This document shows, in pieces, positions 458-46,550 of a stretch of DNA of 64,000 nt (position 1 is the first letter of the stretch; every line of letters begins with the position of its first letter). The stretch lies in assembly GCA_004299235.1 (NCBI GenBank), contig SCQL01000033.1, positions 1-64,000 of the forward strand, in the 5' to 3' direction. Position numbers and translations under genes: made by a program. The DNA comes from a bacterium. GTDB lineage: Bacteria > Chloroflexota > Dormibacteria > Dormibacterales > Dormibacteraceae. A model generated the notes under the pieces. It was not told the origin of the DNA. It saw nothing but the letters and a program-made list of their open reading frames with translations, and did not search any database.

Positions 458-1126
458 ATGGCCGCCTTCGTCGCCAACATCGGCGTCAACTCCGCCCACG
501 CCGCCCGCTCTCCGCTTTTCGACGACGGGTCGTTTCAGCTGTTGCCGATCCCGGAAGAGCCCTCGTGGCGGCCGCCGATGCTCCGGCTGAGAGACCTCCC
601 GGAGCTGGCCGCCCTCGCCCCGACAGCCTGGCGCGAGCGCGCCATCCACCTCGACCCCGACCTCAACCGCGCCACGCCGACTTATGGAGACAACTGCCGC
701 CGCGCCGGCCGTGCCTTCAGCCTCCGACGGGCCCAAAGAGGCGATCTAATCGTCTTCCTCGCGCGACTGCATCCCGTATCCGCGCCCGCCGGCTTTCACC
801 TCGTCGGTCGCCTGGTCGTCGAAGAGGTCGTCGCCGATATCAGCGAGGACCCCGGCCCCGGCTGGTGGGATGGCAACGCCCACGTGCGGCGGGCGCGCGC
901 GACCTCGCTGTGGGACTCGTTCTGGGTCTTCAAGGGTGCGCCGGGTAGCGGGCTCTTCCCGCGAGCGGTGCCCTTCGCCAGGTCACAGGCGGAGTCCGTC
1001 TTCGGCCACGGCTGGCGATGGCCGCCGCACCGAACCGAGCTCCAGACGATCGGGTCATACACCCGGACTGTGCGCCGCATCGAAGGTGAGGGGGAGGCAT
1101 GGCTGCGAGCGATCTGCCCGTCCTGA
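458..1126 (+). CDS. Nmad3-like putative nucleotide-modification protein
   Basis: This 222-residue protein opens with ANIGVNSAH followed by SPLFDDGSF and LLPIPEE, the N-terminal signature I associate with the Nmad3 (nucleotide modification associated domain 3) family. Further along are DNCRRAGRAF, GDLIVFLARL and a FHLVGRL strand. Such domains are predicted, not proven, to act in DNA/nucleotide base modification and are frequent in phages and mobile islands. It has no signal peptide or membrane segment. The ATG lies 6 nt after a TAGCAT box. Its 3' end overlaps the phosphatase gene by 28 bp, so the two are probably translated together. Family assignment is from memory of the motif pattern and is moderate in strength. 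Confidence 0.65.
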   Translation: MAAFVANIGVNSAHAARSPLFDDGSFQLLPIPEEPSWRPPMLRLRDLPELAALAPTAWRERAIHLDPDLNRATPTYGDNCRRAGRAFSLRRAQRGDLIVFLARLHPVSAPAGFHLVGRLVVEEVVADISEDPGPGWWDGNAHVRRARATSLWDSFWVFKGAPGSGLFPRAVPFARSQAESVFGHGWRWPPHRTELQTIGSYTRTVRRIEGEGEAWLRAICPS

Positions 1127-1922: not shown

Positions 1923-2423
1923 ATGATCTCGGCCGCGCGCATCGCGCGGCGCGTGCGGCAGCTCGGCCGGCACGTGTCCCAGGTTTACGCCGGCATCGAC
2001 ACGCCGCTGTTGCTCATCGTCGTCCTGAAGGGCGCGGCCGTGTTCGCGTCCGACCTCCTACGCAGCCTGAGCATCCCCGCCGAGCTGGAATTCGTGCGCG
2101 CCTCCAGCTACGGCTCCGGCACGATCCGGGGCGCGCTCCGGCTCGCGCACATGGTCGACGGTCCGCTCGTCGACCGTCACGTGCTGCTGGTCGAGGACAT
2201 CGTCGACTCAGGCCACACGCTGCACGCTCTGGTCCGGCGTTTCCGCGGCATGAAGCCGGCGTCTCTGCGGATCGCGGCCCTCCTCGACCGGCCCGCGCGC
2301 CGCGCGGTGGGCGTCAACATCGATTTCCTCGGGTTCACCATCCCCGACCGTTTCGTCATCGGCTACGGCCTCGACTACGCCGGCCTGTATCGGGAGCTGC
2401 CGAGCATCCACTCCCTGGGTTAA
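1923..2423 (+). CDS. hpt: Hypoxanthine phosphoribosyltransferase
   Basis: It converts hypoxanthine or guanine plus PRPP into IMP or GMP (purine salvage). The 166-residue protein has the family landmarks: an N-terminal MISAARIARRVRQLG helix, VVLKGA, the PRPP-binding loop LVEDIVDSGHTL and the C-terminal GYGLDYAGLYRELP. An in-frame ATG at 1839 would overlap the phosphatase gene and add 28 low-complexity residues, but family alignment places the start at 1923. A second HPRT domain occurs in this window at 42723-43736, fused to a nuclease-like domain, so the organism has two. The stop overlaps the convergent Ogt-Ada gene by 4 bp. Confidence 0.9.
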   Translation: MISAARIARRVRQLGRHVSQVYAGIDTPLLLIVVLKGAAVFASDLLRSLSIPAELEFVRASSYGSGTIRGALRLAHMVDGPLVDRHVLLVEDIVDSGHTLHALVRRFRGMKPASLRIAALLDRPARRAVGVNIDFLGFTIPDRFVIGYGLDYAGLYRELPSIHSLG

Positions 2424-3199
2424 GCGGTCAAACGGACCGCGGCGGGACGGCAGTCCTTGCACGGCCGGTAGCCCGCGGCGAACGCCGCCGCCTCGTCGTG
2501 GAGCGGCACCAGGTTGGCCTCGGCCGCCCTCTTCACGTGGTGGCATGTCGGGAAGCAGAAGATCTTGGTGGTGCGCACCCCGTGGTAGCGGACGCCGGCG
2601 TGCGCCAGCTCCTCCAGTCGATTCAAACGCACGCCTTCAAGGGTCAGGATCGCGCGCTTCGCGCTGGGCCCCCCGCCCGAGTAGTTGCCGATGGCGCCGT
2701 CCGTGCGGACGACCCGGTGGCACGGGATGAAGTACGGGATCGGATTGTGGGCCAGCGCGGTGCCGACGGCGCGGACGGCCGCGGGACGGCCGATCTCACG
2801 CGCGATCCAGCCGTAGGGCCGAACCTCGCCGCGCGGTATCTCGCGCGTCTTGCGCAGCACCGCCTGCTCGAATTCGGTGAGGCCGCGCAGGTCGAAACGC
2901 AGCCGGCGCTCGCCGCTCAGCTCGGCCTCGATCTTGGCGGCGAGGCCGGGCGGGGCGGGAGCCGCGACCAGCCGCCGGCCGACATCCTGGCCAAACCACC
3001 CCTCGAACGCCGCCGCGGAGCTGGAGCGGGCCGCGGCCGAGACCCCCAGCCCGTTCCAGGCGACGAAAACCGGACCGAGCACGGTGTCGAAACACGCGTA
3101 CGAATCCGCCAGCCCAGCCTGGGCGAGCAGGCGCTCGGCGAACCCGTCGGGCGCCCTGACCTCTCCGAGTCTTGCCAAATCAGTCGTCAGCATGGTCAT
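2420..3199 (-). CDS. O6-alkylguanine-DNA methyltransferase fused to C-terminal Ada zinc domain
   Basis: The 259-residue protein joins two suicide DNA-repair modules. Residues about 30-190 are an Ogt/MGMT domain with the alkyl-accepting cysteine in PCHRV (Cys160). Residues about 203-252 match the Ada metal-binding domain, with Cys215, Cys219, Cys247 and Cys250 spaced as in E. coli Ada (C-x3-C-x27-C-x2-C), where one Cys repairs methylphosphotriesters. In classical Ada the zinc domain is N-terminal and followed by an AraC DNA-binding domain; here it is C-terminal and there is no AraC part. The first about 28 residues (LARLGEVRAPDGFAERLL) resemble the start of anti-sigma-type proteins. The gene overlaps the upstream ECF sigma gene by 20 bp. 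Confidence 0.9.
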   Translation of the reverse strand: MTMLTTDLARLGEVRAPDGFAERLLAQAGLADSYACFDTVLGPVFVAWNGLGVSAAARSSSAAAFEGWFGQDVGRRLVAAPAPPGLAAKIEAELSGERRLRFDLRGLTEFEQAVLRKTREIPRGEVRPYGWIAREIGRPAAVRAVGTALAHNPIPYFIPCHRVVRTDGAIGNYSGGGPSAKRAILTLEGVRLNRLEELAHAGVRYHGVRTTKIFCFPTCHHVKRAAEANLVPLHDEAAAFAAGYRPCKDCRPAAVRLTA

Positions 3200-3695
3200 C
3201 GTCGTCTCCTCTCAGCAATCTGAGTCCGCGGTGGACATTCGCCTTGACCGTCCCCACCGGCTGGCCGAGCACCGCCGCCGCCTCCGCATACGAAAGCTCC
3301 TGCACGTGGCGCAGGACCACCGCTTCCCGATATCGGCGCGGCAGACCGGCCACGCGAGCGGCAAGATCGTCCATCTCCGCGCGGCGCAGCGCATGCGCTT
3401 CGGGGCCGGGGCGGTGATCGGACTCGCTGCCGTTCAGCTCGACCACTCGAGGCCGGACGCCGCGAAGGCGGTTGCGGACGACATTGAGCGCGATGCGATG
3501 CAGCCAGGCTTTCTGCTTCAGGTCCCGAACCCGGTCCGGCGGGTATGTGAGCAGGGCACGATACGCGCGCAGAAACGTATCCTGCGCGACCTCCTCCGCA
3601 TCGGGGCGGTTGCCGGTCATGGCCAGGCTGAAGGCGAACAGGCGGTCCTGGTTCTCTTTAACCATCCGTTCGAACTGACGCTCGACCCCTTCCAT
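3180..3695 (-). CDS. ECF sigma-70 factor
   Basis: The 171-residue protein has region 2 (QDRLFAFSLAMTG...DAEEVAQDTFLRAYRAL...AWLHRIALNVVRNRLR) and region 4 (LPRRYREAVVLRHVQELSYAEAAAVLGQPVGTVKANVHRGLRLLR), with no extra domains. It would redirect RNA polymerase to a small regulon. The ATG at 3695 is preceded by GGGAG 6 nt away; a longer frame exists to 3818 but that extension is a translation of the tandem repeat and has no family match. Its stop overlaps the start of the Ogt-Ada gene by 20 bp, the position normally held by an anti-sigma gene. It is divergent from a second sigma gene at 3830. Confidence 0.9.
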   Translation of the reverse strand: MEGVERQFERMVKENQDRLFAFSLAMTGNRPDAEEVAQDTFLRAYRALLTYPPDRVRDLKQKAWLHRIALNVVRNRLRGVRPRVVELNGSESDHRPGPEAHALRRAEMDDLAARVAGLPRRYREAVVLRHVQELSYAEAAAVLGQPVGTVKANVHRGLRLLRGDDDDHADD

Positions 3696-3737: not shown

Positions 3738-3829
3738 CCCCGCACACGTCCTTGAACACGACCGGCGGCGGGATGGTTGCAACTCCGGGGGAACCATGAT
3801 GCGGCCCCCGGTGTACAAGATGCGTTCCG

Positions 3830-4393
3830 ATGGAGGGCCGACCAGAGGACGATTCCGAGCTGCTCGCGCGCGCCCGGCGCGGCGAGGCGGCCGCCTATGA
3901 GGAGATCGTGCAGCGCTACCAGCAGGTCGCGTTTCGAACGGCGTACGTCATCACCGGGTCGGCGGCGGACGCCGAGGACGCCGCGCAGGAAGGATTCGTC
4001 AAGGCCTACCGCGCCCTCGACCGCTTCCGGCCTGGCGCCGACCTCCGGCCTTGGTTGCTGCGGATCGTCGCCAACGAAGCCCGGAACCGGGTCCGGTCGT
4101 CAGTCCGCCGGCATGGGCTGGAACTCCGCCTGGCCGAGGGCTTCCGCCCGGGGGATGCGGCCCCGTCCCCCGAGGCGGCAGCCGTCGCCGCCGAAGACAG
4201 GCGCGCCCTGCTCGGCCTGGTCAACAGCCTGGGCGAAGAAGACCGGCTCGTGATCGCGAGCCGCTACTTCCTCGAGCTCAGCGGCGAGGAGACGGCGACG
4301 GCGCTGGGCATCCCCGAGGGCACGGTCAAGTCGCGCCTGTCGCGAGCCCTGGCCCGCTTGCGAGCTCGAGTCGGGGAGGCGGCGAATGCCTGA
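3830..4393 (+). CDS. ECF sigma-70 factor
   Basis: The 187-residue protein has a clear sigma region 2 (YEEIVQRYQQVAFRTAYVITGSAADAEDAAQEGFVKAYRAL, RPWLLRIVANEARNRVR) and region 4 (EDRLVIASRYFLELSGEETATALGIPEGTVKSRLSRALARLR). It is divergent from the sigma gene at 3180-3695 across a 134-bp gap. Its stop overlaps the next gene, a membrane-anchored protein, by 8 bp, the usual arrangement of a sigma factor and its anti-sigma factor. Confidence 0.93.
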   Translation: MEGRPEDDSELLARARRGEAAAYEEIVQRYQQVAFRTAYVITGSAADAEDAAQEGFVKAYRALDRFRPGADLRPWLLRIVANEARNRVRSSVRRHGLELRLAEGFRPGDAAPSPEAAAVAAEDRRALLGLVNSLGEEDRLVIASRYFLELSGEETATALGIPEGTVKSRLSRALARLRARVGEAANA

Positions 4394-5174
4394 GCTCACC
4401 GAGTTGGAGGCACGATTGACTCGCCTGGGCGCCGAGCTGGACTGGCCGGTCACCCCGGACCTTGCGCCCAGGATCAGGTCCCGAATCGCCACCCAGCGCC
4501 CGGCGCCACCGCGGTGGTTCTCCAAACCCTGGGCCCTTGCCGCCGCGGCCGTGATCCTGGCGCTCGCCGCCCTGCTCGCCTATGCCCCCGCGCGCGACAC
4601 CATCGCCGGCTGGATCAACGTGCACGCGCTCATCGAACGCGTCCAACGCCTGCCGGCGCCATCCCCCCATCCGCCGGCCCCCCTGGGCAAGCGTCTGGGG
4701 CTTGGCGGCCAGACCACGTTGAAGGCGGCGGCCGGAGCGGTGAAATGGCACGTCCTCGTGCCCGCATCGCTCGGCCCGCCGGACGAGGTCTACCTGCAGC
4801 CGTCGCCGGATGGGCCTCCCCAGGGCGAGGTGACGCTGGTGTACTCCCTCCGGCCCGGCATCCCAACCTCAGGCCAGACCGGCGTCGCGGTGCTGGTCAC
4901 CGAGGCGCGCGGGGCGATCGACGCCAACTTCTTCGGCAAGCTGCTCGGGCCCGGCACGACGCTCGAAGACGTGACCGCCGCCGGGCACCCCGGCTACTGG
5001 ATCGCCGGCAAGCCGCACGTCTTCTTCCTGGTCGATGCCGAAGGCAACATCCGCGACGAGACTCTGCGCCTGGCCACGAACACGCTGCTGTTCGACGACG
5101 GCGGCACGGTCGTGCGCATCGAGGGCGACCTGACCAGAGCACAAGCCCTGGAGATCGCCGCGTCCCTGCATTAG
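4386..5174 (+). CDS. Membrane-anchored putative anti-sigma factor
   Basis: The 262-residue protein has a soluble N-terminal part of about 45 residues, one membrane helix (WALAAAAVILALAALLAYA, about 45-63) and an extracytoplasmic domain with YLQPSPDG, GHPGYWIAGKPHVFF and VRIEGDLTRAQALEIAASL, a layout like DUF4367-type regulatory domains. There is no HxxxCxxC zinc motif. The 8-bp overlap with the sigma gene and the single helix make an anti-sigma role likely, but this is inferred from position and topology. Confidence 0.75.
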   Translation: MPELTELEARLTRLGAELDWPVTPDLAPRIRSRIATQRPAPPRWFSKPWALAAAAVILALAALLAYAPARDTIAGWINVHALIERVQRLPAPSPHPPAPLGKRLGLGGQTTLKAAAGAVKWHVLVPASLGPPDEVYLQPSPDGPPQGEVTLVYSLRPGIPTSGQTGVAVLVTEARGAIDANFFGKLLGPGTTLEDVTAAGHPGYWIAGKPHVFFLVDAEGNIRDETLRLATNTLLFDDGGTVVRIEGDLTRAQALEIAASLH

Positions 5175-45929: not shown

Positions 45930-46550
45930 TCAGCCGCCGCGCCGAGATTTTTTCGGCAGGGGCCGGGAGAGGTGCGGCGAATCCCAGCAGAAGCGCAAGC
46001 GCCGGTCCTGCCACTCGCCTGAGTTGTAGATCCCGATCCGCGGCGTGGCCACCACGCGGCGGCGCGGCGCGTGGTCGTCGACGACGTAGAGGTGAGGCGG
46101 TCGCAGCGGCGCCCCGTTGAGGCCGCGGTCGATACCGAGCGCGCGGCACACCAGCCCGGGGCCGCCGCACCGCCCCACTCCCGGGCCGGGCTCCAGCGCG
46201 CGCACCAGCACGGCCTGAGGCACGCCGGCCGGCCGCGTGACGAAATTCAAGCAGTGGTGCATCCCATACGTGAAATAGACATACGCGTGGCCGGGCTCGC
46301 CGTACATGACGTCGTTACGCGGGCTGCGCCGGCCGCCGAAGGAATGCGCGGCCCGGTCGTCGGGGCCCAGGTAGGCCTCGACCTCGACGAGCCGGCCCCA
46401 CGCCATCCGGCCGCCGATCTCACGGACCAGCACCTTGCCCAGCAGGTCTCGCGCCACGGCCACCGTGTCCCGTGCGAAGAACCCGGCGTCCAGGACCGCG
46501 CCTGACGGAGGCGCCCCGGCCGGTTCCAGCTCAGACGCCGGCCTGGCCAA
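45930..46550 (-). CDS. 3-methyladenine DNA glycosylase (AAG/Mpg family)
   Basis: The 206-residue protein removes alkylated purines from DNA. It shows ARDLLGKVLVREIGG, WGRLVEVEAYLGPDDRAAHSFGG (catalytic Glu in EVEAY), PRNDVMYGEPGHAYVYFTYGMHHCLNFVT and RPAGVPQAVLVRALEP, all typical of AAG. It complements the Ogt-Ada protein elsewhere in this window. Its start overlaps the end of the GGDEF gene by 20 bp. Confidence 0.94.
   Translation of the reverse strand: MARPASELEPAGAPPSGAVLDAGFFARDTVAVARDLLGKVLVREIGGRMAWGRLVEVEAYLGPDDRAAHSFGGRRSPRNDVMYGEPGHAYVYFTYGMHHCLNFVTRPAGVPQAVLVRALEPGPGVGRCGGPGLVCRALGIDRGLNGAPLRPPHLYVVDDHAPRRRVVATPRIGIYNSGEWQDRRLRFCWDSPHLSRPLPKKSRRGG

Follow-up and report, generated by a model that had tools for sequence, protein, structure and literature searches.

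In many soil bacteria from several phyla, the gene of an ECF sigma factor and that of an alkylation-repair MGMT (6-O-methylguanine DNA methyltransferase) form one overlapping unit, as seen by sequence comparison. The pair described here lies on the minus strand of the window, a stretch of 64,000 nucleotides (contig SCQL01000033.1) from a bacterium of the Dormibacteraceae, and its MGMT is fused to an Ada domain. Such a pair probably, though far from certainly, constitutes an autoregulated alkylation-response circuit, in which the MGMT, with or without Ada, would be both anti-sigma factor and sensor. The comparison identifies the pairing, the coupling, a promoter, targets predicted from motif or operon, and a transferable N-terminal element that is specific to sigma linkage. 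We infer that the MGMT binds the sigma factor, that this binding is inhibitory, and that alkylation drives release.

The sigma factor gene and the MGMT-Ada gene

The window is part of a MAG contig whose closest named relatives are Candidatus Dormiibacterota. The sigma factor gene (3180–3695, minus strand) encodes 171 amino acids, in which Pfam and alignment recognize region 2 (Sigma70_r2, 4e-13) and region 4 (Sigma70_r4_2, 1e-15). This is the make-up of ECF sigma factors, which have regions 2 and 4 only and about 170–200 amino acids. The next gene (2420–3199, minus strand) encodes the 259-residue MGMT-Ada fusion, the proposed anti-sigma factor and alkylation sensor. Its start overlaps the sigma stop by 20 nucleotides (3180–3199, minus strand), an arrangement that suggests translational coupling and recurs in most homologues of the family. 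A preliminary description of this DNA had reported an ECF sigma factor overlapping an Ogt-Ada gene by 20 nucleotides, and both reading frames, their domains and the overlap are confirmed by Pfam and by the sequence.

The fusion protein begins with an N-terminal extension (residues 1–30; 3110–3199, minus strand), which is delimited by comparison of sigma-linked with sigma-less MGMTs and is the proposed sigma-binding element. The MGMT fold follows (residues 31–190; 2630–3109, minus strand), as indicated by Pfam (PF01035, 2e-30, residues 109–190), AlphaFold2 and Foldseek, which matches the model to MGMT structures with E about 1e-11. The catalytic motif IPCHRV is unbroken, and the codon of the catalytic Cys160, in PCHR, lies at 2720–2722 (minus strand). 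At the C-terminus is the Ada zinc domain (2444–2596, minus strand), recognized as PF02805 Ada_Zn_binding (7e-13, residues 202–252) and matching PDB entries 1adn, 1u8b and 1zgw by sequence at about 1e-6. The AlphaFold2 model (pLDDT 92, pTM 0.86; lowest certainty in the first ten residues) lays out two helices, residues 4–13 and 20–27, then the MGMT fold and then the Ada domain.

The hallmarks of Ada are present in part. The protein has the MGMT domain with its PCHR cysteine and the four-cysteine zinc domain, but the Pfam matches of the 259 residues include no AraC or HTH family, in agreement with the earlier statement that the AraC activator part is missing. The accompanying statement that the four cysteines keep the E. 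coli spacing does not hold. They are arranged as C215-X3-C219-X27-C247-X2-C250, whereas E. coli has X26 in the long interval. The PDB alignments show this one-residue difference, with 49 residues of the query set against 48 of 1adn. The X27 spacing is found in 63 of 66 family members.

Conservation of the pairing

Homologues were sought in 61 genomes, the window's own and 60 relatives, and the same sigma gene stands immediately upstream in all of the best 30 loci, the window itself being counted among them. The overlap in these 30 loci is mostly 20 nucleotides; elsewhere it is a 4-nucleotide ATGA, in more distant homologues, or the spacing is near zero. When the genomes of 84,980 species were scanned, an ECF gene was found upstream in 21 of the 22 strongest matches (L032–L053), which are partly the same records as in the 61-genome search. 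The carriers among these matches are Dormibacterota, other Chloroflexota, Acidimicrobiia, Nonomuraea, Streptosporangium, WPS-2 and one MAG labelled Proteobacteria. The lone exception is a locus in a Methylomirabilota MAG (L049), and the WPS-2 locus (L050) has a split sigma reading frame. Phylum-wide searches agree with this pairing. Sigma-less relatives of the MGMT exist within the phylum (L112–L115, L119 and L147), and these were picked on purpose and do not give a rate.

The MGMT gene thus takes the place of an anti-sigma gene, directly 3′ of the sigma gene and coupled to it by a conserved overlap of 20 or 4 nucleotides. The recurrence of sigma/Ogt-Ada pairs among homologues, on which the preliminary description had made its proposal depend, extends from the 30 nearest loci to several phyla, among them Chloroflexota/Dormibacterota, Actinomycetota and WPS-2. 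Both kinds of gene, ECF and ogt, are common, and two common gene types may come to lie side by side by chance; this explanation is already contradicted by the conservation, together with the shared promoter motif described below, and we give it almost no credence.

Mycobacteria and Nocardia also carry ECF-MGMT pairs (L061, L063, L073, L074, L086, L096, L101 and L103). As in the window family, the ECF gene is directly upstream of, and nearly touches, an MGMT gene whose product has an N-terminal extension. Unlike the window family, these pairs are without Ada, have another N-terminal sequence, carry a different, promoter-like motif, CTCAC-N17-CGTC, before the sigma gene in all eight cases, and have sigma factors that form a separate clade.

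The promoter motif and its predicted targets

Upstream of the sigma gene of the window is a conserved motif (3755–3781, minus strand) that resembles an ECF-type promoter of the sigma operon, with a −35 element TGCAACC (3775–3781), a spacer of 15 nucleotides and a −10 element GTGTT (3755–3759). It is the only match in the window to the family consensus, TGCAACC-N15-GKGTT. A looser scan (TGCAAC, 14–17 nucleotides, GKGTT; within about 150 nucleotides) finds the motif in 49 of 80 loci against 0.01 in shuffles, the 80 being the set after removal of duplicates, in which near relatives are over-represented. It occurs in several phyla, and the spacer has the same length in 45 of the 49 motif loci. The distance from the −10 element to the ATG is about 59 nucleotides in the window, with short repeats, and 11–14 nucleotides in relatives. 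Judged by sequence, a motif in this position before the sigma gene is characteristic of ECF operons that are autoregulated.

In 301 genomes, the majority of them without the pair, the bare pattern turns up about 0.4–0.5 times per genome. Single sites in trans are therefore weak at this chance frequency, and only intergenic or recurrent sites were kept. Among these, the motif precedes another MGMT gene (G021:C69, G059:C11 and G233:C40), an AlkA-like glycosylase gene (G142) and genes of EamA transporters (G063, G084, G338 and G226), of which the one in G226 also adjoins the sigma operon. In G226, the transporter was identified by its sequence and then fed into the EamA HMM; the other transporters were named by Pfam. 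The motif also precedes closely similar SDR oxidoreductase genes in Nonomuraea (L227:687–1469, minus strand) and Streptosporangium (L228:1602–2405, plus strand). Independently of the motif, HMMs built from the trans-target proteins find AlkA homologues (L041, L043, L117, L122 and L124) and EamA homologues (L125, L131, L132, L134 and L139) encoded directly after the MGMT gene, which places one or the other inside the operon in several lineages.

In 11 Dormibacterota genomes, the motif lies inside dtd, and an EamA gene follows directly (L155:4517–4543, minus strand, which is G000:C33:68517–68543, and L231–L240). Across these genomes, the third base is invariant in 20 of the 142 dtd codons. The codons GCA-ACC and GTG-TTG-TTG are frozen, as is the T before GCA, while the residue whose codon bears this T varies. 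A coincidence of coding was dropped as an explanation in view of these frozen synonymous sites, and the site was retained because of them, the frozen T and the EamA gene that follows. It is a candidate promoter within a coding gene, and in the window's own genome it is the sole spacer-matched site besides that of the sigma operon.

The predicted alkylation regulon has its strongest support in the way MGMT, AlkA and EamA fit together. The preliminary description had looked to a promoter motif shared by the sigma gene and DNA-repair genes. This expectation is borne out before the sigma gene and before MGMT and AlkA-like genes; it fails for the Mpg gene of the window (45930–46550, minus strand), for which the proposed link was dropped, since the sigma promoter motif was not found upstream of it. 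No tie between EamA transporters and alkylation was found in the literature searched.

Two further sites were set aside. A recurrent site, TGCAACCA[AG]CCA in L186–L192, was judged a coincidence, as it is antisense within a conserved coding stretch (DPNTLQAWLVANGL). A site in G000:C63 near an integrase-like reading frame has a 17-nucleotide spacer and was taken as chance.

The candidate sensing domain

Ada is absent from 14 of the 80 sigma-linked MGMTs, namely eight from mycobacteria and Nocardia, five from Chloroflexota and one from Actinokineospora, and in the sigma tree these Ada-less pairs occupy several branches. The PCHR catalytic cysteine is found in 80 of 80, although the contig pattern scans, but not the genome-search matches, partly select for PCHR. 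On both counts, the MGMT is the more general candidate for the sensor, and Ada would contribute a further input. Judged from these alignments, the Ada domain is dispensable in sigma-linked MGMTs, and what the sigma-linked proteins have in common is an N-terminal extension and the MGMT.

The preliminary description had proposed an alkylation-response circuit in which the Ada domain senses the damage. The circuit itself gains from the conserved pairs, the ECF-type promoter, the links to repair genes and the N-terminus, while the data do not support Ada as the sensing domain in general.

The N-terminal element

In sigma-linked MGMTs, about 30 amino acids precede the transferase fold, with the consensus L..L......AP..LL..VL...GLAD-Y. 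In sigma-less relatives, the protein begins with the fold itself or has an unrelated leader. Of 10 held-out sigma-linked proteins from actinobacteria, 9 score more than 5 bits with an HMM trained on Chloroflexota, against none of 27 sigma-less proteins (Fisher 8e-8, a value that counts loci as independent though they are related by descent). The mycobacterial pairs are without this element and differ in N-terminal sequence.

Sister sigma factors without MGMT (L290–L300, L302 and L303) come mainly from one family of the phylum and are followed by the gene of a HEAT-repeat protein; several of these proteins also have a WD40 or PQQ propeller. The N-termini of these HEAT and propeller proteins match the same element (p 7e-10 against background; 3e-8 against their own interior windows). 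In the sigma tree, the HEAT-linked sigma factors form one clade (100/98) nested among the MGMT-linked ones, with several weak forks nearby. The HEAT-repeat partners are likely another type of anti-sigma factor. A segment that is kept beside the sigma factor while the body of the partner is swapped matches what one would expect of a sigma-binding element, and the likeness of the N-terminus to anti-sigma starts, noted at the outset, is upheld. In genomes with the HEAT-type partner, the motif sites form no coherent set.

These observations bear on the role of the MGMT. An autoregulated operon with alkylation-repair targets needs no anti-sigma role, so that the MGMT may be merely the main target of the sigma factor, whose activity would be set by its own transcription or by another protein, the coupling serving expression level. 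We consider this unlikely, as it leaves unexplained the strict 3′-adjacent coupled position, the extension that tracks sigma linkage and its transfer to unrelated partners. A still less probable reading is that the MGMT-Ada is a coactivator, which in its alkylated form would bind the sigma factor by its N-terminus and bring it, or RNA polymerase, to promoters. E. coli Ada activates through contact with RNA polymerase, including the sigma subunit (PMC4437013), and the Ada domain of known Ada can bind DNA. Against such a coactivator, the Ada domain is missing from many sigma-linked MGMTs, and the same N-terminal element is found on HEAT and propeller partners in the anti-sigma gene position.

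Proposed mechanism

In the anti-sigma reading, the co-translated MGMT-Ada would keep the ECF sigma factor inactive by means of the short two-helix N-terminal element. The active-site cysteines of the MGMT, and of Ada where present, would irreversibly take alkyl groups from damaged DNA, and the alkylated, single-use protein would alter its shape or be degraded, freeing the sigma factor. Alkyl transfer by known MGMT enzymes is suicidal (PMC4437013). The free sigma factor would use TGCAACC-N15-GKGTT to transcribe its own operon and, according to lineage, further MGMTs, an AlkA-type glycosylase and the EamA transporter. Once the lesions are gone, fresh unmodified MGMT would sequester the sigma factor again. 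Whether a suicide repair enzyme serves here as anti-sigma factor, so that lesions would be read stoichiometrically, with one inhibitor spent per alkyl transfer, and whether the N-terminal sigma-binding module can be transferred to unrelated sensors, seems to us evenly balanced.

Relation to known systems

In the classification of Casas-Pastor, the group ECF122 has a 6-O-methylguanine DNA methyltransferase as conserved neighbour and no recognised anti-sigma factor, and its mechanism is listed as unknown (PMC8999054). The window family likewise has an MGMT as conserved neighbour, a likeness drawn from the description of the group, and differs in that the review mentions neither an Ada domain nor a promoter, a regulon or an N-terminal element (PMC8999054). 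The literature searched, with subscription papers mostly outside it, holds no description of the N-terminal element, the motif or the targets, and nothing on ECF factors with alkyltransferases beyond the ECF122 remark.

The Ada adaptive response of E. coli (Ada/AlkA/AlkB/AidB) also joins an MGMT and an Ada zinc domain in one protein, has alkylation-repair targets and relies on a suicidal sensor with control over its own gene, as is predicted here. The window protein differs in having no AraC HTH, a C-terminal Ada zinc domain and X27 spacing, and the system in its predicted output through a dedicated ECF sigma factor and in that Ada is often absent. Canonical ECF sigma/anti-sigma operons share the coupled partner after the sigma gene, the short helical N-terminus and the autoregulated −35/−10 promoter; their partner is of the membrane, zinc or receptor type, whereas the putative anti-sigma factor here is a soluble DNA-repair enzyme.

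If the mechanism is true, ECF signalling would have a direct input from DNA damage, an unusually direct way of sensing it, and the adaptive response would have a second design, based on a sigma factor, in phyla in which this response is poorly known. The circuit is a candidate mechanism for an ECF-MGMT association that was recorded, in the literature searched, as a gene neighbourhood alone. With it come a short candidate element for sigma binding, a defined promoter and a set of predicted targets, among them the EamA transporter.

Neighbouring genes

Divergent from the sigma operon, the window has a second ECF sigma gene (3830–4393, plus strand), followed by a gene (4386–5174, plus strand) whose product is anti-sigma-like and is predicted to have a membrane segment. 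This divergent ECF gene is present in nearly all close relatives (L002–L024) and has its own conserved upstream sequence of the GGAACC type. Near the start of the window, the gene at 458–1126 (plus strand) encodes an Nmad3 domain (PF18754, 3e-20, Pfam), which is associated with nucleotide modification.
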